Part shown: positions 6,815 to 14,019 of the stretch, in pieces
Numbering within the stretch: the first letter of the stretch is position 1
How the letters are laid out: each line of letters begins with the position of its first letter
Made by a program: the position numbers and the translations under genes
Assembly: GCF_028737255.1 (NCBI RefSeq)
Contig: NZ_JAQZAN010000019.1
Coordinates: 62,001-126,000, forward strand
Source: Actinomycetospora straminea
GTDB taxonomy: Bacteria; Actinomycetota; Actinomycetes; Mycobacteriales; Pseudonocardiaceae
Direction of reading: 5' to 3'
DNA length: 64,000 nt
Notes under the pieces: model-generated
The model's input: the letters and a program-made list of their open reading frames with translations, nothing else
Database searches by the model: none
What the model was told of the DNA's origin: nothing

Positions 6815-7186
6815 TCACACGGGGGCGGTGACGGCGCGGCTGCCGCCCATCCAGCCGGGCAGGTGCAGCATCTTGATGCCGGGTCCGCCGGCGACGATCG
6901 GGAGGACCTCGGCCGCGCTGGTGTGGTCGCCGCCGGTGCGGGCGCGCAGGGCGGCGTCGGCGCGCTCGCGCAGGGCGGTCGCGGGGTCGCCGGACGGGGC
7001 GAGGCGGGCGGCGACCTCGGGCGGGAGCACGACGGCGTGGGTCATCCCGCGCCCGCGGGCGGGGTCGCCGGCGGCGAGGACCGCGCCGGCCAGGGCGTCG
7101 GCGAGGGGATCGAGCACCGCGTCCGGGTCGGGCCGGTCGTCGCGCGGCAGCACCTCGGCCGTGCCGCCGATCGGCAGCACCGTCAC
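6815..7186 (-). CDS. small uncharacterised protein at the end of the UGSC operon
   Basis: 123 aa, last gene of the selenoprotein operon, starting 23 nt after the preceding stop at GTG (VTVLPIGGTAEVLP). It has an alanine-rich helical middle (PLADALAGAVLAA, then ATALRERADAALRAR) and a Gly-rich, well-defined end (IVAGGPGIKMLHLPGWMGG). It has no cysteine, so it is not obviously redox-active. I recognise no family. Position suggests an accessory or structural role for the DGLPxVPPT proteins. A start further upstream in the same frame cannot be excluded. Confidence 0.7.
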   Translation of the reverse strand: MTVLPIGGTAEVLPRDDRPDPDAVLDPLADALAGAVLAAGDPARGRGMTHAVVLPPEVAARLAPSGDPATALRERADAALRARTGGDHTSAAEVLPIVAGGPGIKMLHLPGWMGGSRAVTAPV

Positions 7187-7209
7187 GGCGTCCGGGGCAG
7201 CGGGGGATG

Positions 7210-7773
7210 TCAGCGACGTGCGAGCGTGCCCCAGGGGCCGTCCGGGGCCTCGGCGAGGCAGCAGGTGTAGCGGGCGGGCTGGGCGGTGGTCGTCATGGTC
7301 GTGACGCCCGGCACCACGCCGCCCGCGGTCGCCAGCGTGAGGGCGAGCGCGCGGCCGACCGCGCCGTTGGTGTGCGGGCCGGGTCCGAGCATCCCGGTGC
7401 CGTGGGACAGGCCGAGCCGCTCCGCGACCGGCCCGGTGACGATCACCGCGATCGCGGCGGTGCCGGTGGTCGTGGCGACCCCGAGCAGGTTGAGCTCCGG
7501 CACCAGGCACGCCGTCGCCGCCGCGAGCACGACGGGCAGGGCCGCCGGCGGGGCGCCCGCGAGCACGCAGCACGTGGCCGCGAGCCGCGGCGTCAGCTCG
7601 CCGAACAGCGGCGGCACCGCGCCGAGGACCGCGTCCGGGTCGGCGGTGCCGGCCAGCACCGCCTCGACCCGCGACGGCGTCGGCGGCACCACCGGGAGCC
7701 CGTCGCCGATGCCGTCGGCGAGCAGCGTCGCCGTCGCGTCGACGACGTCGGTGCCCTCGGGGACGGTCCTCAC
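7210..7773 (-). CDS. DGLPxVPPT-domain protein, short paralogue
   Basis: 187 aa. GIGDGLPVVPPTPSRVEAVL at residues 21-40 matches the same motif in the two larger proteins upstream, followed by LAATCCVLAG where the paralogues have MAGCRP, and by VTGPVAERLGLSHGTGML. It corresponds to only about the first half of the paralogous domain. The GTG start overlaps the stop of the preceding paralogue (GTGA). The function is unknown. Conserved cysteines and the company of a CATC flavoprotein suggest thiol/selenol redox chemistry (inference). Confidence 0.78.
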   Translation of the reverse strand: MRTVPEGTDVVDATATLLADGIGDGLPVVPPTPSRVEAVLAGTADPDAVLGAVPPLFGELTPRLAATCCVLAGAPPAALPVVLAAATACLVPELNLLGVATTTGTAAIAVIVTGPVAERLGLSHGTGMLGPGPHTNGAVGRALALTLATAGGVVPGVTTMTTTAQPARYTCCLAEAPDGPWGTLARR

Positions 7774-8786
7774 GGCACCCGGCGCGACACCAGCGCGGTG
7801 CCGCCGAACGACGGGATCCACGCCGAGTGCTTCCCGGCCCCGCCCGCGACGGCGAGGTGCAGGTTCTCCGGGGCGTCGCTGACCGTGTAGGCGTCCCCGT
7901 CGGGCTCGACGCCCCACTCGACGAACTGCCGCCGGTTGCCCGCCGAGACGTGGGAGACCGGGATGCGCGCGTGCTCCCACAGGTGCGCGCGGATCGTGTC
8001 GGGCGTCCAGCCGTCGCGGTGCAGCGTCGCGGCGTGCTCGGGGCCGAGCAGCAGCAGGTGCGGGCCACGGACGTAGACGTTGTTCGAGCCGGGCTGGGCC
8101 ATCGTCCCGGCGACGGTCAGCAGGATCTCCGCGCCGGTGGTGCTGCCGTGGTCGTTGACGTTGTGCGGCGGCTCGGCGGCCATGACGGACACGACGCCCT
8201 CGTCCGCACCGAAGCCGCGGCGCACCGCGAGCGACTCCCAGGGCGAGTCCGACTCCCCGAAGCAGAACGTGTACTTCGCCGGCGAGCCCTGCGTCGAGCG
8301 GTCGAGCACCCCGGGCCGCGCGCCGCCGACGTGCAGCAGCACGAGCGAGAGCGCCCGCCCGATCACCGCGTTCGCGCGGGTGCCCTGCCCGAGGCAGTTG
8401 CCGCCCGCGTTGATCCCCAGCGCGTCGCACACCGGGCCCGAGACCAGCACCATCGGCGCGCACGGGTGCGTCGTCGCGAGCGTGCCGTGCAGGTTGTAGG
8501 CCTCGTCCTGCACGGCGTCGAGGGCGGCGAGCACCACCGGGAGGTCCGCGGGCCGGCAGCCGGCCATCACCGCGTTCGCCGCGACCGAGCGCAGCGTCGG
8601 CGTCACCCCGCGCGGGGGCAGCGGACCGAGGTGGGGCAGGTCGGGCGGCAGGGCGGCCAGCATCGCCGCGACCCGCTCCTCGGTCGGCGGGACCGTCGGC
8701 AGCCCGTCGCCCCAGCCGCGCTCCTCGCAGGCGGCCGTCCAGGCCCAGGCGTCGTCGACGTCGGGCAGATCCAGGACGTCGGTCAC
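7770..8786 (-). CDS. DGLPxVPPT-domain protein, stand-alone paralogue
   Basis: 338 aa. It is homologous over its whole length to the C-terminal two thirds of the UGSC fusion protein encoded at 10134-11861. Shared landmarks are GWGDGLPTVPPT (25-35), ANAVMAGCRPADLPVVLAAL (71-90), VLVSGPVCDALG and RANAVIGRALSL. It has several cysteines (C20, C77 and others including YTFCFGE) and no signal peptide or membrane segment. The GTG start overlaps the stop of the UGSC selenoprotein (GTGA), implying coupled translation. No biochemical function is known to me for this domain. Confidence 0.82.
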   Translation of the reverse strand: MTDVLDLPDVDDAWAWTAACEERGWGDGLPTVPPTEERVAAMLAALPPDLPHLGPLPPRGVTPTLRSVAANAVMAGCRPADLPVVLAALDAVQDEAYNLHGTLATTHPCAPMVLVSGPVCDALGINAGGNCLGQGTRANAVIGRALSLVLLHVGGARPGVLDRSTQGSPAKYTFCFGESDSPWESLAVRRGFGADEGVVSVMAAEPPHNVNDHGSTTGAEILLTVAGTMAQPGSNNVYVRGPHLLLLGPEHAATLHRDGWTPDTIRAHLWEHARIPVSHVSAGNRRQFVEWGVEPDGDAYTVSDAPENLHLAVAGGAGKHSAWIPSFGGTALVSRRVP

Positions 8787-9313
8787 GACAGCTCCCCCAT
8801 CGACCGCAGCTCCGCCACGACCCCGGCGTAGGCCGTCTCCGTCCGCCCCGCGAGCTCGTCGGGCGAGAGCCCGCCGACGGGGTGGTCGACGACGACGAGC
8901 CGCGGCTCGGCGCGGCGGGCCGTCGCCTGCGCCTGCACCAACGGCAGGAACGACGAGGTGACGACGAGGATCGAGCGCACGCCGCGGCGCTCGAGCTCCA
9001 GCGAGTCGTGGAGACTCCACGACGAGCACGAGCCTCAATCACCGATGGCGACGACGGCGAGCCGGTACTGCGCGGCGAGGTGGTCGAGCAGCGCGGGGTC
9101 GGCGCCGACCGCGGCGCTCGGCTTGGCCTCCAGCCCGTTCGGCCCGAGCCCGTGGTCGTCGGCGAGGCGGCGCCCGATGGCGGCGAGGATGTCGTGGGCG
9201 CCGGGCTTGGAGTTCGACAGGCCGCACAGGGCTCCCGCGGCGCCGTCGGCGGCCGCGACCACGGCGACCGTGTCCTCCGGCGCGGTCCCGGACGTCGGGT
9301 CGACGATGCGCAT
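8783..9313 (-). CDS. UGSC family selenoprotein (in-frame TGA read as Sec93)
   Basis: 176 aa if the TGA at 9037-9035 is read through. Residues 1-92 (MRIVDPTSG, then GLSNSKPGAHDILAAIGRRL, ending LAVVAIGD) continue in the same frame as U-GSCSSWSLHDSLELERRGVRS and then VVDHPVGGLSPDEL to a normal TGA at 8783. This is the architecture of the UGSC family: a parallel alpha/beta protein with Sec-Gly-Ser-Cys after the central strand and an HDxxELERRG helix. The family was recognised as selenoproteins in metagenomes, and its function is unknown. A hairpin resembling a bacterial SECIS begins 11 nt after the TGA. The ATG overlaps the stop of the flavoprotein gene (TGATG). A conventional gene caller would split or truncate it. 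Confidence 0.88.
9005..9023 (-). other. bacterial SECIS-like hairpin for Sec93
   Basis: On the minus strand a 7-bp stem (GTCGTGG at 9023-9017 with CCACGAC at 9011-9005) closes a 5-nt loop, AGUCU. The loop starts 18 nt after the UGA. From memory this matches the E. coli fdhF element, where the SelB-binding loop (GGUCU) also lies 18 nt after UGA. The outer arms could pair further (GCUC with GAGC). Confidence 0.75.
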
Positions 9314-10137
9314 CAGGCCTCCTCGAGGTGGGCGACGACCGCGCGCCCGGCCCGCAGGCCGTCCGCGGCGGCGGTGAGCAGGTACCGGTCGGCGCCGGTG
9401 ACGTCGCCCGCGGACCACACCGGGGCGTCCGCGGGCAGCCCGTCGAGCAGCTCCCGGCGCGGGTCGGCGTGGGTGTAGACGAAGACCCCCGACGCCTCGA
9501 GGACCTCGCCGTCGTCGAGGCGCACGGCGCCGAGCGTGCCGTCGCCCTCCAGCGCGGCGACCGCGGCCGACCGCACCTCGACGGCCCCGGCCAGGCGGCG
9601 GCCCATCGACGCCGACCACGACGGCGCGGTGCTCACCAGCGTCACCCGCTTCGCGATCCCGGCGAGCTCCAGCGCCTCCTGCGCGGTCCACCCGTCGTCG
9701 CCGACGACCACCACCTCGCGCCCGGCGTGCAGCGGCCCGTCGCAGGTCGCGCAGTGCGACAGGCCGCGGCCCTCCCACGCGTCGGCGTCGGGCACGTCGA
9801 GGCGTCCCGGCGTGCGCCCGGTGGCGACGACGACCGCCCGCGCCGTCACCGGGCCCTCGGCCCCGTCGACCGTCAGCGGGTCGGCGCGCAGGCCGGTGAC
9901 CTCGCCGTACGCGATCTCGACGCCGCGGTCCACGACGTCGGTGAGCAGCGCGCCCATGAGGTCCGGACCGGTCGTCGGCGCGCCCGGCCAGTCGGCGAGG
10001 GCGCCGAGGTTGATCAGCTGCCCGCCCGGCGCGAGCGCGTCGTGGGCGACGACGGCGAGCCCGCGGTCGGCGCAGGCCCGGGCCGCGGTGAGACCGGCGA
10101 TGCCCGCCCCGACGACGACCACGTCCCACTCGGTCAC
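9313..10137 (-). CDS. thioredoxin-reductase-like flavoprotein with CATC
   Basis: 274-aa FAD/NAD(P)H pyridine nucleotide-disulfide oxidoreductase of the low-Mr thioredoxin reductase type. FAD site VVVGAGIAGLTAA (8-20), GGQL at 38-41 and VVVATGRTPG (102-111). The redox-active pair is C129-A-T-C132 in SHCATCDGPL, as in TrxB. The second nucleotide-binding site is degenerate (VVVGDDGWTAQEA), and the C-terminal FAD segment SAGDVTGAD is present. The GTG start overlaps the fusion selenoprotein stop (GTGA), and its own stop overlaps the UGSC start. It probably reduces the Sec/Cys centres of its neighbours (inference). Confidence 0.88.
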   Translation of the reverse strand: MTEWDVVVVGAGIAGLTAARACADRGLAVVAHDALAPGGQLINLGALADWPGAPTTGPDLMGALLTDVVDRGVEIAYGEVTGLRADPLTVDGAEGPVTARAVVVATGRTPGRLDVPDADAWEGRGLSHCATCDGPLHAGREVVVVGDDGWTAQEALELAGIAKRVTLVSTAPSWSASMGRRLAGAVEVRSAAVAALEGDGTLGAVRLDDGEVLEASGVFVYTHADPRRELLDGLPADAPVWSAGDVTGADRYLLTAAADGLRAGRAVVAHLEEA

Positions 10138-11861
10138 CGGACCTCCTCGATCCGCCGGCTCACCGGCACGCCCTGCACGTGGTTCTGCACGAAGCCGCGG
10201 GACTGGTTGCGGCTCGCGTTGCCCGCCAGCACGATCCCGATGTCCGCGGCGCGCGGCACCATCGGCACGAGCCGGTCGGGGTGGTCGCCGGCGTAGCGCT
10301 CGTCGAGCTCGCCGGCGGCGACGGCCGCGTCGAGGTCGAAGCTCGTCGAGCCGACGTTCCACGCGCACGCCTGCAGCTGGCGCACCGGCACCCGCATGTG
10401 CTCGGCCAGGTGGGCGCGCAGCGCGTCCTTGTCGACGCCGAAGCCCGCGAGCGCCCGCGCCACCGCCGGCCCGAGCACGAGCAGCGGGTGGAACGCGCCG
10501 AACTCGATCCCGGTGTACGCCCACGGCCCGATCGCGTTGCCGAAGATCGTGGTCAGCGCGTCGAGGTGGTCGGCCGCGCTCTCGCCGCCGGAGTAGATGG
10601 GCGCACTGACCGCGACGACGCTCTGCACCGTGACGACGCTGTCGGCGTCGGCGAAGCCCCGGTCGACCCGGAACGACGGCCAGCCGAGGTCGCGCACCGC
10701 CGCGTCGTCCTCGGCCAGCGCGACGTGCCAGGTCGAGGCGATCGCGCCCTGGTCGGTCTGCCCGGGCGGGATGCGCAGGCCGGCGACGTTGCGCAGGTAG
10801 AGCCGCAGGAAACGCCCGACCGCGGTGTTCGCGCGCCGCCCGACCCGCAGCGCGCCCGTCCCGCTGTGGAAGCCGAGGCGCTCGACGACCGGGCCGGACA
10901 GCACCACCAGGGGCTCCCACCCCGGCGTCGACCCGGCGTCCTGCACCCGGAACGCCGGGTCGGCGACGCACGCGACGATCGCCAGCAGCACCGGCAGGTC
11001 CTGCGGCCGGCAGCCGGCCATGACCCCGCCCACCGCGACGCTGCGCACCGTCGCCCGCCGCAGCTCGGGGGCGAGGACGCCGAGCACCTCGTCGGGGTCG
11101 CGGCGGGTGTGGTCGAGGAACGCCGCGACGCGGTCCGGGGTCGGCGGGACGATCGGCAGGCCGTCGGTCCAGCCCCGCGTCTCGAAGACGTCGGTGATCG
11201 CGTCGAGGTCACCGCGCGCGACGATCTCGGTGGGTCCGTGGTCGACGGCGCCGGCGCCCGCGTCGTCGGCTCCCCCGTCACCACCATCGAGCGACGACGA
11301 CCCCGCCACCAGCGCGTCCACCACCGCCGGCGCCACCTGCTCGCGCATCTTCGCCCGGAACACGTCGCCGGTGTCGGTGAGGATCACGCCCGGGTAGCTG
11401 ACGATCGGGACGTGCCCGACGCCGAGCGACCGGCCGACCGCGCGGCCCATCCCCTCGAACCCCGCGCCGCCGATCGCGACCGCCGGCACCCCGGCGCGCT
11501 CGGCGGTGGCCGCTGCCCGCATCACGGCAGGCATGCAGGAGCCTCAAGCACCGACGGCGGCGACGACGAGGTCGACGCGGTGGGCGCGCAGCAGCTCGGG
11601 CAGCGCGTCGAGCACCCGGCGCTCCTCGGCGGCCGAGGCGTGGAAGTTGCCGAACTCCTCCCAGCCGACGAACGCGACGTCGCCGTGCCGCTCGCGCGCC
11701 ACCTCCGAGATGACGTCGAACATCTCGGGGCCGCGGAAGAGCTCGTCCCAGAGGTAGGCGATCCGCCGGCCGCGCAGCGTCTCGGGGCGCTCGTGCTCGG
11801 CGACGTCGTCGACCTCCCGCGGCCCCAGCGGGCCCAGGACCTCGTAGCGCGGCTCGCTCAC
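10134..11861 (-). CDS. UGSC-DGLPxVPPT fusion selenoprotein (in-frame TGA read as Sec106)
   Basis: 575 aa with read-through of the TGA at 11546-11544. Residues 1-105 (GTG start, MSEPRYEVLGPLGP, ending VVAAVGA) continue as U106-GSCMPAVMRAAATAERAGVPAV, giving a second UGSC domain to about residue 188. A Gly/Asp/Ala-rich linker (about 188-210) leads to a DGLPxVPPT domain (DGLPIVPPT at 233-241, VMAGCRPQDLPVLLA from 280) like the stand-alone paralogue. AGGGGGAG precedes the GTG start, 10 nt after the MFS stop. A conventional caller would give a 105-aa protein and a 466-aa one starting at ATG 11534. The function is unknown. The fusion argues that the two domains work together. Confidence 0.87.
11513..11530 (-). 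other. bacterial SECIS-like hairpin for Sec106
   Basis: On the minus strand a 6-bp stem with one bulged G (CTGCCG at 11530-11525 with CGG-G-CAG at 11519-11513) closes a 5-nt loop, UGAUG, 19 nt after the UGA. Position and size suit a SelB-binding element, though the loop differs from that of the first gene. Confidence 0.55.
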
Positions 11862-11871
11862 GGTGCTCCCC

Positions 11872-13179
11872 CTACTCGTCCGCGGTGATGACGCGACCGG
11901 CCCGGTCGCGCAGGAACAGGGCGGCGACGGTGACGATCGCCGCGCCGACGACGGCGATGCCGACCGCGATGCCGTAGCCGGCGCTCGTGGCCACGACGCC
12001 GCCGATGATCGTCCCGATGCCGGACAGGCCGCGACCCACGTTGTAGGCCGCCGCCGACCCCAGCGAGCGGATGCGGGTCGGGAACAGCTCGCCGAACCAC
12101 ACCCCGAAGATGCCGAAGTAGCCGAGGAACAGGCTGGACGCGAGGTAGAGCCACACGAAGTTGCCCAGCCCCTCGCCGCCCAGGGCCAGCGCGAGCATCA
12201 CGGCGAACGTGACGGTCTGCAGCGCCGCGAACGCGACGAACACCGGCCGGCGACCGAAGCGGTCCGAGAGCCAGCCCGCGAGGATGAAGCCGACGAACGA
12301 GATCGCGGCGGCGACGTAGAGCACCGTGCTCGCGGTGCCGGCGTCGAGGCCGAGGTCGGTCTTGAGCATCGAGGGCATCCAGGCCGTCGCGGTGTAGGGC
12401 ACCCACTGCGCACCGAACGCGACGACGAGCCCGACCAGCACGATCGGCAGCGAGTCCCGGGCCACGAGCTGGCGCCACGTCGACCGGGACGCCTTCGCCG
12501 CGGTGGCGTCGGTGAGCAGGCCCTCCGCCTTGCGCCGCTGCAGCTCCTCCCACTGCCGCGACTCCCGGCACGCGAAGCGGATCCAGACGCAGGCGAGCGC
12601 GGGCAGGACGCCGATGAGGAAGGCCACCCGCCAGTCGACGACGAGCTGGGCGACGAGCACGGCCAGCGCGTAGGCGGGCCACAGCGACGCCTGGACCAGG
12701 CCGCCGCCGAGGCCGCGGCGCTTCGGCGCCCACGCCTCGTTGAGCCAGGCGAACCCGACCGCCCACTCGCCGCCGGTGCCGACGCCGGTGAGCACGCGGA
12801 GCACGACGAACACCGCGAAGTTCGGGGCGACGAAGACCAGGCCGGTCGCGACCGAGTAGATGAGGATCGACCAGATGAGGGTCCGGCGGCGCCCGTAGCG
12901 ATCGCCGAGCCAGCCGAAGAGCACGCCGCCGATCGCGGAGCCGACGAGCTGGCCCGCGATGGCCACCCCGAACACGCCGGCCGAGACGCCGTAGTGCGCC
13001 ATGATCGCGCCCGCGAGCAGCGTCGGGAGCATGAAGTCGAAGTACTCCATGCCCCAGCCGAGGCAGGCCGCGCCGAGGATGCGGCGGCGCTCGCCCGGGG
13101 TGTACTCGGGCGACTCCGTGATCGTCGCGGTCGTGGTGGTGCCGCCTGCTGCCGGCGGGCGGTCCTGCTCGGCGGTCAT
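11872..13179 (-). CDS. MFS transporter
   Basis: 435-aa inner-membrane major facilitator with 12 predicted helices. It has the loop 2-3 signature GWLGDRYGRRRTL and its repeat in the second half (GWLSDRFGRRP), GVGTGGEWAVGFAW in helix 4-5, and a cytosolic central loop (QWEELQRRKAEG). The type resembles organic-acid/H+ symporters (MhpT/NanT-like), so the substrate is probably a carboxylate (inference). The ATG follows GGAGGAG. First gene of the selenoprotein operon, so it may import the compound processed by it. Confidence 0.88.
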   Translation of the reverse strand: MTAEQDRPPAAGGTTTTATITESPEYTPGERRRILGAACLGWGMEYFDFMLPTLLAGAIMAHYGVSAGVFGVAIAGQLVGSAIGGVLFGWLGDRYGRRRTLIWSILIYSVATGLVFVAPNFAVFVVLRVLTGVGTGGEWAVGFAWLNEAWAPKRRGLGGGLVQASLWPAYALAVLVAQLVVDWRVAFLIGVLPALACVWIRFACRESRQWEELQRRKAEGLLTDATAAKASRSTWRQLVARDSLPIVLVGLVVAFGAQWVPYTATAWMPSMLKTDLGLDAGTASTVLYVAAAISFVGFILAGWLSDRFGRRPVFVAFAALQTVTFAVMLALALGGEGLGNFVWLYLASSLFLGYFGIFGVWFGELFPTRIRSLGSAAAYNVGRGLSGIGTIIGGVVATSAGYGIAVGIAVVGAAIVTVAALFLRDRAGRVITADE

Positions 13180-13284: not shown

Positions 13285-13959
13285 CTACGACCGGGGCGGC
13301 AGCCCCAGCGCGGCGTGGAGGTCGGCGACCGTGTGGTCGCGGTGCGCGTCCATGAGCGACACCACCGCCCCGAGATCCCCCCGCCGCAGCGCGGTGATCA
13401 TCCTGCGGTGCTCGCGCACCACCCGGGACCGGCCCGCGGAGTCGTAGAGGTGGACGGTCCGGTAGGGCTCGCTGCGCCGCCAGAGCCGGGCGATCTCGTC
13501 GACGACGAGGTCGAGGCCCGAGAGCCGGAACATGGCGAAGTGGAAGGCCTGGTTGGCCGCGACGATGCCCGCGACGTCGACCCGCTCGACCTGCTCGCCG
13601 ATCGCCTCGTTGAGGCTGGTCAGCTCGCGGAGCTGCGCGGCGGACAGGCGCGGCAGCGCGCGCAGGACCTCGGTCTCGAGGGCCCGGCGCATGAGGTAGA
13701 CCTGCGCGAGCTCGTCGGCGTTGAGCCGCGCCACGGCGTAGCCGACGTGCGGCTCGTGGCGCAGGACGCCCTCGGCCTCGAGGGTCTTGAGCGCCTCGCG
13801 CACCGGGATGCGGCTCACCCCGAGCCGCGCGGCGAGCGTCTCCTGGCGGACCTGCTGGCCGGGCACGAGCTCGCGCGAGCGCAGCATCCGGCGGATCTCC
13901 TCGACCGCGCGCTGCACGCTCGTCGCCCGCCGCGCGGGCTCCGTCTCGGTACCGACCAC
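13285..13959 (-). CDS. GntR-family regulator, FCD type
   Basis: 224 aa. A winged helix-turn-helix (about 18-75: VQRAVEEIRRMLRSRELVPGQQVRQETLAARLGVSRIPVREALKTLE) is followed by an all-helical FCD ligand domain with the metal/ligand residues ANQAFHFAMFRLSG and VVREHRRMITALRRGD and a late AHRDHTVADLH. Such proteins sense small organic acids and usually repress adjacent catabolic genes. The GTG at 13959 is chosen because GGAGGGAGG lies about 7 nt upstream; the frame runs on to a TTG at 13980. It sits between the MFS/UGSC operon and the divergent acyl-CoA operon, both preceded by TTGGATACGA. Confidence 0.9.
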   Translation of the reverse strand: MVGTETEPARRATSVQRAVEEIRRMLRSRELVPGQQVRQETLAARLGVSRIPVREALKTLEAEGVLRHEPHVGYAVARLNADELAQVYLMRRALETEVLRALPRLSAAQLRELTSLNEAIGEQVERVDVAGIVAANQAFHFAMFRLSGLDLVVDEIARLWRRSEPYRTVHLYDSAGRSRVVREHRRMITALRRGDLGAVVSLMDAHRDHTVADLHAALGLPPRS

Positions 13960-14019
13960 GCCCCCACCTCCCTCCGGCAAAGCGTAACGAGCGCGGGGTC
14001 CGGCGCGGGTGTGCCGCCA

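Follow-up and report, generated by a model that had tools for sequence, protein, structure and literature searches.

Selenoproteins with the motif U-G-S-C, i.e. selenocysteine (Sec, U) followed by Gly-Ser-Cys, were described as the UGSC-containing family in the Global Ocean Sampling (GOS) survey (PMC2398784), and that paper also reports a UGSC/Unknown_1 fusion (Figure S1A), in which a UGSC selenoprotein is likewise joined to an unnamed conserved domain. UGSC-motif selenoproteins are named among the UAG-Sec genes in PMC5330540, which, citing a 2016 report, gives this use of UAG as known for UGSC genes of Geodermatophilaceae. For GrdB and for FarB, the Sec subunit of the fluoroacetate reductase FarB/FarE, Sec was proposed to attack the polarised C-N or C-F bond of the bound substrate (PMC10838667). 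Here we analysed a stretch of 64,000 nucleotides from Actinomycetospora straminea (contig NZ_JAQZAN010000019.1, positions 62,001 to 126,000 of the forward strand; hereafter the window), in which a gene on the minus strand (10134..11861) joins a UGSC domain to a second domain, called DGLP after its motif DGLPxVPPT. Within a selenoprotein family already known, the fusion gene represents a divergent variant. Since the UGSC/Unknown_1 fusion has been in print since 2008, the fusion as such is not new, and Unknown_1 is possibly DGLP. The new parts are the DGLP partner family and the link between UGSC and GrdB: within the passages retrieved from the open-licence literature, no text connects UGSC with GrdB, Unknown_1 is the only partner named, and nowhere is DGLP described as a regular partner of UGSC.

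Reading frame and decoding of the internal TGA

The fusion gene starts at GTG 11861, with GGGGAG, which resembles a ribosome site, on its 5' side. It ends with TGA and encodes 575 amino acids if the TGA at codon 106 (11544..11546, minus strand) is read as Sec, an assignment based on the alignment of homologues and on tRNA-Sec anticodons. According to an earlier note on this DNA, a single frame is broken by this TGA alone and the two halves are in frame. Translation of 11861-10134 confirmed both points: TGA 106 was the sole internal stop, and GGC TCC TGC (Gly-Ser-Cys) came directly after it. The UGSC domain (residues 7-185; 11307..11843, minus strand) matched the UGSC family PF24696 with 87.6 bits, above the gathering cut-off of 25, and the match ran across the TGA. 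For the DGLP domain (residues ~219-575; 10137..11207, minus strand), no credible match was found in Pfam, NCBIfam or the PDB sequences. The two strands of the window together contain 803 TGA trinucleotides; only two of these are followed in frame by Gly-Ser-Cys, and both lie inside UGSC genes (11546-11544 here and 9037-9035 in the next UGSC gene). The fusion gene shares with the described family (PF24696, NF041046) the domain, the U-G-S-C motif and a site that is an in-frame TGA or TAG or codes for Cys, but it falls below the NCBIfam equivalog cut-off, is joined to DGLP, and diverges after the motif, where it reads UGSCMPAV as compared with the family consensus CGSCTSxSVHD.

The host genome (6.29 Mb, 98.96% complete) contained tRNA-Sec, selA, selB and selD, all above the curated cut-offs. 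The tRNA-Sec, with the anticodon UCA, scored 73.5 bits (cut-off 47), and selA, selB and selD scored 396 (267.9), 250.9 (242.25) and 398.8 (125) bits, respectively. The tRNA-Sec gene lies 6.7 kb from selA and selB on one contig; selD is located on another.

In the aligned homologues, residue 106 was Sec (TGA), Sec (TAG) or Cys. A search of the order with the fusion protein gave matches in 64 of 397 genomes at E 0.001, and in the loci fetched from this search the Sec-site codon was TGA in the host, G267, G041 and G096; 23 genomes, all from a single family, had TAG there, and others encoded Cys. We searched 34 of the matching genomes for tRNA-Sec (4 TGA, 23 TAG and 7 Cys). The anticodon was UCA in all four TGA genomes and CUA in all 23 TAG genomes, one of which (G085) carried, on another contig, an additional tRNA-Sec with UCA. 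As for the Cys type, tRNA-Sec was present in G207 and G302 (UCA) and in G253 (CUA), and no match was obtained in G361, G052 and G087 at E 1e-8. The 51-bit match in G030 was a tRNA-Ser according to ARAGORN, and G030 was therefore not counted as bearing tRNA-Sec; among the matches of 49-53 bits, this was the only one examined further. Unless it is translated as Sec, a stop codon that tracks the tRNA-Sec anticodon at one and the same site is difficult to account for. Thus, as this comparison of genomes shows, SelB and tRNA-Sec(UCA) almost certainly read TGA 11546-11544 as Sec; the predicted 575-residue selenoprotein is supported both by the machinery of the genome and by Sec or Cys at the site in homologues.

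The TAG-type UGSC genes (L024, L025, L027-L042, L044, L045, L048-L050, L053, L056 and L060) go together with tRNA-Sec(CUA), and a Blastococcus locus, L142, likewise has TAG at the Sec site. Because of the latter, we infer that the TAG family is Geodermatophilaceae. These relatives fit the UAG recoding described for Geodermatophilaceae (PMC5330540), whereas the genome of the window uses TGA and UCA. UGSC genes can also be broken at the Sec codon by annotation, as exemplified by two plasmid records: an Acidovorax record (L064:6983-7273) lists the part before Sec as a short hypothetical protein, and a Paracoccus record (L067:6411-6980), with selB nearby, splits the UGSC gene in two at this codon.

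A hairpin resembling a Sec insertion sequence (SECIS) directly follows the TGA (11514..11533, minus strand; 7-bp stem, 6-base loop), with a z of -0.88 that is not significant alone. We examined the family hairpin in 52 rows, i.e. 51 of 90 distinct Sec sites, hand-picked for diversity, and the site of the fusion gene; as the 48 bases of the latter are identical to those of G267, 51 of the rows are distinct. In this set, columns 15-22 after the codon pair with columns 26-33 and 88.7% of the cells were paired, as compared with at most 49.5% when the partner was slid. Seven of the eight pairs were altered on both sides, and none of 500 shuffles reached the covariation score. In 19 Cys genes 57.9% were paired at the hairpin columns, yet these were also above their shuffles (0 of 500). 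The mean z of the folding energy was -1.79 for 74 TGA sites, -0.94 for 22 TAG sites and -0.57 for 19 Cys sites. The hairpin of the fusion gene is shifted by one register from the commonest family hairpin, and the clade of fusions to which it belongs deviates from the family's exact stem; L123, a member of this clade, had a z of -2.69, and the stand-alone UGSC gene of the window (8783..9313) one of -1.95. The hairpin data thus support the Sec reading strongly for the family and weakly for the fusion gene.

The TGA could instead be a true stop, leaving a UGSC fragment of 105 residues and a separate protein of 466 residues that restarts at ATG 11534, four codons 3' of the TGA, and a mechanical list of open reading frames (ORFs; translation table 11) gives exactly these two. 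We regard this as very improbable, given that the Pfam match spans the TGA, that the Sec machinery is complete and that codon and tRNA-Sec anticodon agree from genome to genome. The in-frame TGA is, moreover, retained in all five members of the fusion clade, and L116 and L123 have Thr codons in place of the ATG. Nor do homologues end at this position: G267, G041 and L116 keep the TGA and a full-length downstream domain, and L123 keeps them to where its contig ends. That the TGA is a sequencing error for a sense codon, or that the gene is decaying, is hardly credible. One neighbouring gene, DGLP-3 (see below), is broken, which means that the assembly or the locus has at least one lesion; however, the same TGA occurs in the independent genomes G267, G041, L116 and L123. 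The ratio of nonsynonymous to synonymous substitution rates (dN/dS) against G267 and G041, the nearest relatives (80% and 60% identity of the fusion, respectively), was 0.18-0.32 in all three segments, i.e. on either side of the TGA and in DGLP, and 0.31-0.45 against the more distant L116.

The DGLP domain and its partnership with UGSC

To follow DGLP, we took as loci the best 80 of 585 relatives from a DGLP-seeded search. In 70 of these 80 loci UGSC was located within 2 kb on the same strand, and the 74 UGSC domains of the DGLP loci had TGA (64), TAG (1) or Cys (9) at the Sec site. Ten loci had no adjacent UGSC; the nine of their genomes that were searched all hold PF24696, each match with one TGA, and the tenth locus, L146, was outside this search. 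In the reverse direction, a PF24696 search of 396 genomes of the phylum yielded 45 matches in 27 genomes (37 with one TGA and 8 stop-free), and DGLP was found within 1.5 kb in all 30 of the UGSC loci examined. Either UGSC or DGLP may come first, which indicates that the link is not one frozen arrangement. The comparison of loci shows DGLP, as judged from gene neighbourhood, to be a regular partner of UGSC. The suggestion that the fusion gives a clue to a functional partner is thus borne out by adjacency far outside the window. The DGLP half is very probably the second subunit of the UGSC enzyme, which elsewhere is usually a separate neighbouring protein. The pair is spread over many bacterial phyla and haloarchaea, with Cys at the site in the three haloarchaeal loci seen. 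Poribacteria account for five of the ten loci that lack an adjacent UGSC (L096, L097, L101, L110 and L111): UGSC did not stand alongside DGLP in any of their five loci and was located elsewhere in each genome.

The invariant positions of DGLP are Asp-Gly, an Arg and a Gly. The Cys of AVMAGC is nearly invariant, and a second nearly invariant Cys is replaced by Ala in the fusion. Nineteen DGLP members gave nothing better than E 0.12 against Pfam and NCBIfam; the PDB sequences gave nothing below E 0.1 and a viral library no match at E 0.001. No PDB fold was matched by Foldseek at E 0.001, and we rejected a known fold for DGLP: the best match (E 3.8e-3) was class I fumarase alpha, followed by cyclic amide hydrolases, and in the DGLP rows listed the TM-score by query was at most 0.27, which is not significant. 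Homology to GrdE/PrdA was also rejected (0.04% against a GrdE profile of nine rows, two of which repeat genes already present), as was a relationship to UGSC itself (0.3% in the profile comparison).

In-frame UGSC-DGLP fusions were present in 10 of the 80 DGLP loci (11 junctions). The site is TGA in the host, G267, G041 and the Acidovorax plasmid, TAG in G288 and G312, and Cys in G253, and Met replaces Sec in Sporomusa and Vibrio plasmids. In a quick tree of 116 DGLP domains, based on a short search and with long branches flagged, eight changes were needed for the fused state, and the fusion gene grouped with G267, G041 and two Chloroflexota in a clade (support 100) whose five members are all fused. 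On this sequence evidence, the fusion is found in several lineages and is one of several arrangements. The Chloroflexota contig L116, which bears a UGSC-DGLP fusion, also has an in-frame DGLP-UGSC frame of reverse order (6995-8596). The Sporomusa and Vibrio plasmid relatives sit near aconitase X and DUF126.

Relation of UGSC to GrdB and PrdB

With PF07355 (GrdB) as the query, 13 of the 19 genomes or records searched had a match at E 0.01. Eight GrdB-type genes were fetched, in which TGA is followed by GTS/GTG or PNC/PVC/PLC/PRC and the frame is open beyond it, as expected for Sec. When 36 UGSC proteins were compared with the profile of these eight genes by hhalign, the probability reached 92.4% (E 5e-7) with the Sec columns aligned, and 88.6% with the four motif columns masked. 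The controls were far lower: at most 0.6% for 60 column-shuffled profiles, 0.1% for a reversed profile and 3.3% for GrdE aligned at the corresponding stretch. By this comparison, UGSC and GrdB/PrdB share a homologous Sec-bearing domain. Since single-sequence Pfam scans do not list PF07355, we class UGSC as distantly related to GrdB, outside the family itself; the profile comparison shows a kinship in which UGSC is quite probably a distant relative of GrdB and PrdB, the Sec subunits of the glycine and D-proline reductases.

As in GrdB and PrdB, Sec stands at the same place and the gene shares an operon with that of a partner subunit, and the short PrdB-like forms have, as in UGSC, a Cys three residues after Sec. 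Operons of the grd type typically include a thioredoxin-reductase-type electron donor, a further likeness to the operon of the window. Unlike GrdB and PrdB, UGSC is missed by the Pfam scans and goes without a pyruvoyl partner of the GrdE/PrdA type, DGLP being unrelated in sequence. FarB/FarE (PMC10838667) resembles UGSC-DGLP in combining a GrdB-type Sec subunit with a non-pyruvoyl partner and in the proposed attack on a C-F bond; FarE, however, is a relative of GrdE, which DGLP is not, and FarB is nearer to GrdB proper than UGSC is. Short PrdB-like Sec genes (L182-L186) occur in UGSC-bearing genomes. Three of them (L182, L184 and L185) continue for 239-256 residues past Sec, and PF09338 was not matched in the genomes of L182-L185, the four covered by the search.

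Operon context, proposed reaction and its rivals

The genes that follow the fusion gene are on the same, minus strand. The first encodes a thioredoxin-reductase-like flavoprotein with a CATC motif (9313..10137; Pyr_redox_2, 63.4 bits; TIGR01292, 136 bits, below the cut-off of 343.45) and overlaps the fusion stop by 4 bases. It is followed by a second, stand-alone UGSC selenoprotein with the motif UGSC (8783..9313; TGA 9037-9035; PF24696, 122.8 bits), by the stand-alone DGLP-2 (7770..8786; assigned by homology; AlphaFold2 (AF2) pLDDT 94.3) and by a third copy, DGLP-3 (6815..7773), broken by a frame change at ~7249-7210 in this assembly. In the sister genome G267 the equivalent of DGLP-3 is a single open frame; the break is either an error or decay. 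With the starts chosen, the fusion gene and these four genes overlap by 1-4 bases at all four junctions, so that the tight packing read from the sequence in the earlier note held, as did its statement that a homologous domain occurs alone next door (DGLP-2 at 8786-7770, together with the broken DGLP-3). Immediately upstream is the gene of a major facilitator superfamily (MFS) transporter (11872..13179, minus strand; PF07690, 170.5 bits), and beyond it that of a GntR/FCD regulator (13285..13980, minus strand; from a domain scan). G267 and G041 both retain the genes for the flavoprotein, the MFS transporter and the GntR regulator. Adjoining the operon, the opposite strand encodes a CoA-ligase-like protein and an acyl-CoA dehydrogenase; these two are conserved in G267, but no counterpart was found in the stretch of G041. 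Contig 16 of the same genome as the window (G000; L059:7673-9275) carries a further UGSC selenoprotein gene, the third, which has TGA and is of the split type with DGLP first.

Of 277 neighbouring ORFs that a crude script had called, we scanned 229 (117 + 112). Among the families listed (25 of 138 and 25 of 177), the commonest were TctC receptors (12) and family III CoA-transferases (11), with acyl-CoA dehydrogenases and enoyl-CoA hydratases also among them, which suggests organic-acid catabolism. A shared metabolic neighbourhood was nevertheless rejected; the neighbourhoods vary, and the families listed name no substrate.

On balance, we consider it somewhat probable that this two-domain selenoprotein, composed of a GrdB-like UGSC domain and a DGLP subunit, serves in Sec-dependent reductive cleavage; the substrate is likely to be a small organic acid. 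The MFS protein would import this acid and DGLP would bind and polarise it, whereupon the UGSC selenolate would attack and reductively cleave a C-X bond (X = N, S, O or halogen). The Cys after Sec in U-G-S-C could resolve the selenolate, and the Sec-Cys bridge so formed would be re-reduced, here by the CATC flavoprotein, while the product would enter CoA-dependent breakdown. The roles of the selenolate and of DGLP are assigned by analogy with GrdB/FarB, and from the context of MFS, GntR, flavoprotein, CoA-ligase-like and acyl-CoA dehydrogenase genes we infer uptake, cleavage and CoA-linked breakdown, as we do the formation of a UGSC-DGLP complex, its chemistry, the electron donor and the substrate. 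The C-X cleavage chemistry in particular is put forward tentatively, at rather less than an even chance.

Several observations weigh against this explanation. The fusion protein (44.2 bits) and the stand-alone UGSC protein (107.9 bits) stay below the cut-off of 125 of the equivalog NF041046. The hairpin does not rise above shuffled sequence in this gene, G267 (both -0.88), G041 (-0.48) or L116 (-0.84), and in the Sec-gene set a partner slid by -3 also had seven pairs altered on both sides, with 16 further pair types as compared with 15, although this slide falls short of the true register on pairing and covariation score. With regard to GrdB, PF07355 was absent among 25 of the 27 Pfam families listed for the 36 UGSC proteins at E 1 (each of the two unlisted ones matched a single member, seemingly at E 0.26 or weaker), and the fusion and stand-alone UGSC proteins matched only PF24696 at E 0.1, short of the PF07355 cut-off. 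The host genome itself had neither a PF07355 match nor a partner of the GrdE/PrdA type (PF09338) at E 0.01, and DGLP, as described above, is unrelated in sequence to the pyruvoyl-type partner GrdE. A matching flavoprotein was found in 8 of the 100 loci searched, and no consistent substrate pathway emerged among the neighbour families listed. Finally, Met-Gly-Thr-Ser replaces UGSC in the Sporomusa and Vibrio relatives (L066:6323-8047 and L069:6386-8071) and in L230, which indicates that neither Sec nor Cys is needed at the site for the core to exist; these relatives are perhaps a non-redox branch.

Alternatively, the two-domain selenoprotein may be real but its UGSC domain a thioredoxin-like thiol/selenol redox protein that keeps the DGLP Cys reduced. 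UxxC resembles a redox motif, DGLP has the nearly invariant Cys of AVMAGC and a second one, and a thioredoxin-like fold was stated to be likely for UGSC in 2008 (PMC2398784). The operon itself contains a thioredoxin-reductase-like protein, although such a gene occurs in so few of the loci searched. The second DGLP Cys is lost to Ala in the fusion, and the profile comparison ties UGSC to GrdB/PrdB. In the confident AF2 model of the fusion (pLDDT 90.4, pTM 0.91), all Foldseek matches were weak, none at E <=0.001, and the best 50 of 1266 included no thioredoxin but many flavodoxin, receiver and sugar-binding folds. We hold a thioredoxin-like role to be the less probable of the two readings, though with a fair chance.

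If the GrdB-like reading of the two-domain selenoprotein is followed further, UGSC-DGLP could conceivably represent a widespread class, hitherto unrecognised, of reductases that use Sec to cleave C-X bonds. Such enzymes would be cousins of the glycine and proline reductases of Stickland metabolism, with the pyruvoyl partner of the Sec subunit exchanged for a new fold and the two subunits fused into one chain several times, but we offer this as a speculative view. Neither Pfam nor NCBIfam has a label for the DGLP family, which merits a model of its own and whose partnership with UGSC gives a lead to the job of the UGSC family. With a regular partner and a kinship with GrdB/PrdB, what was a "redox protein of unknown function" becomes an enzyme of two subunits that can be tested.

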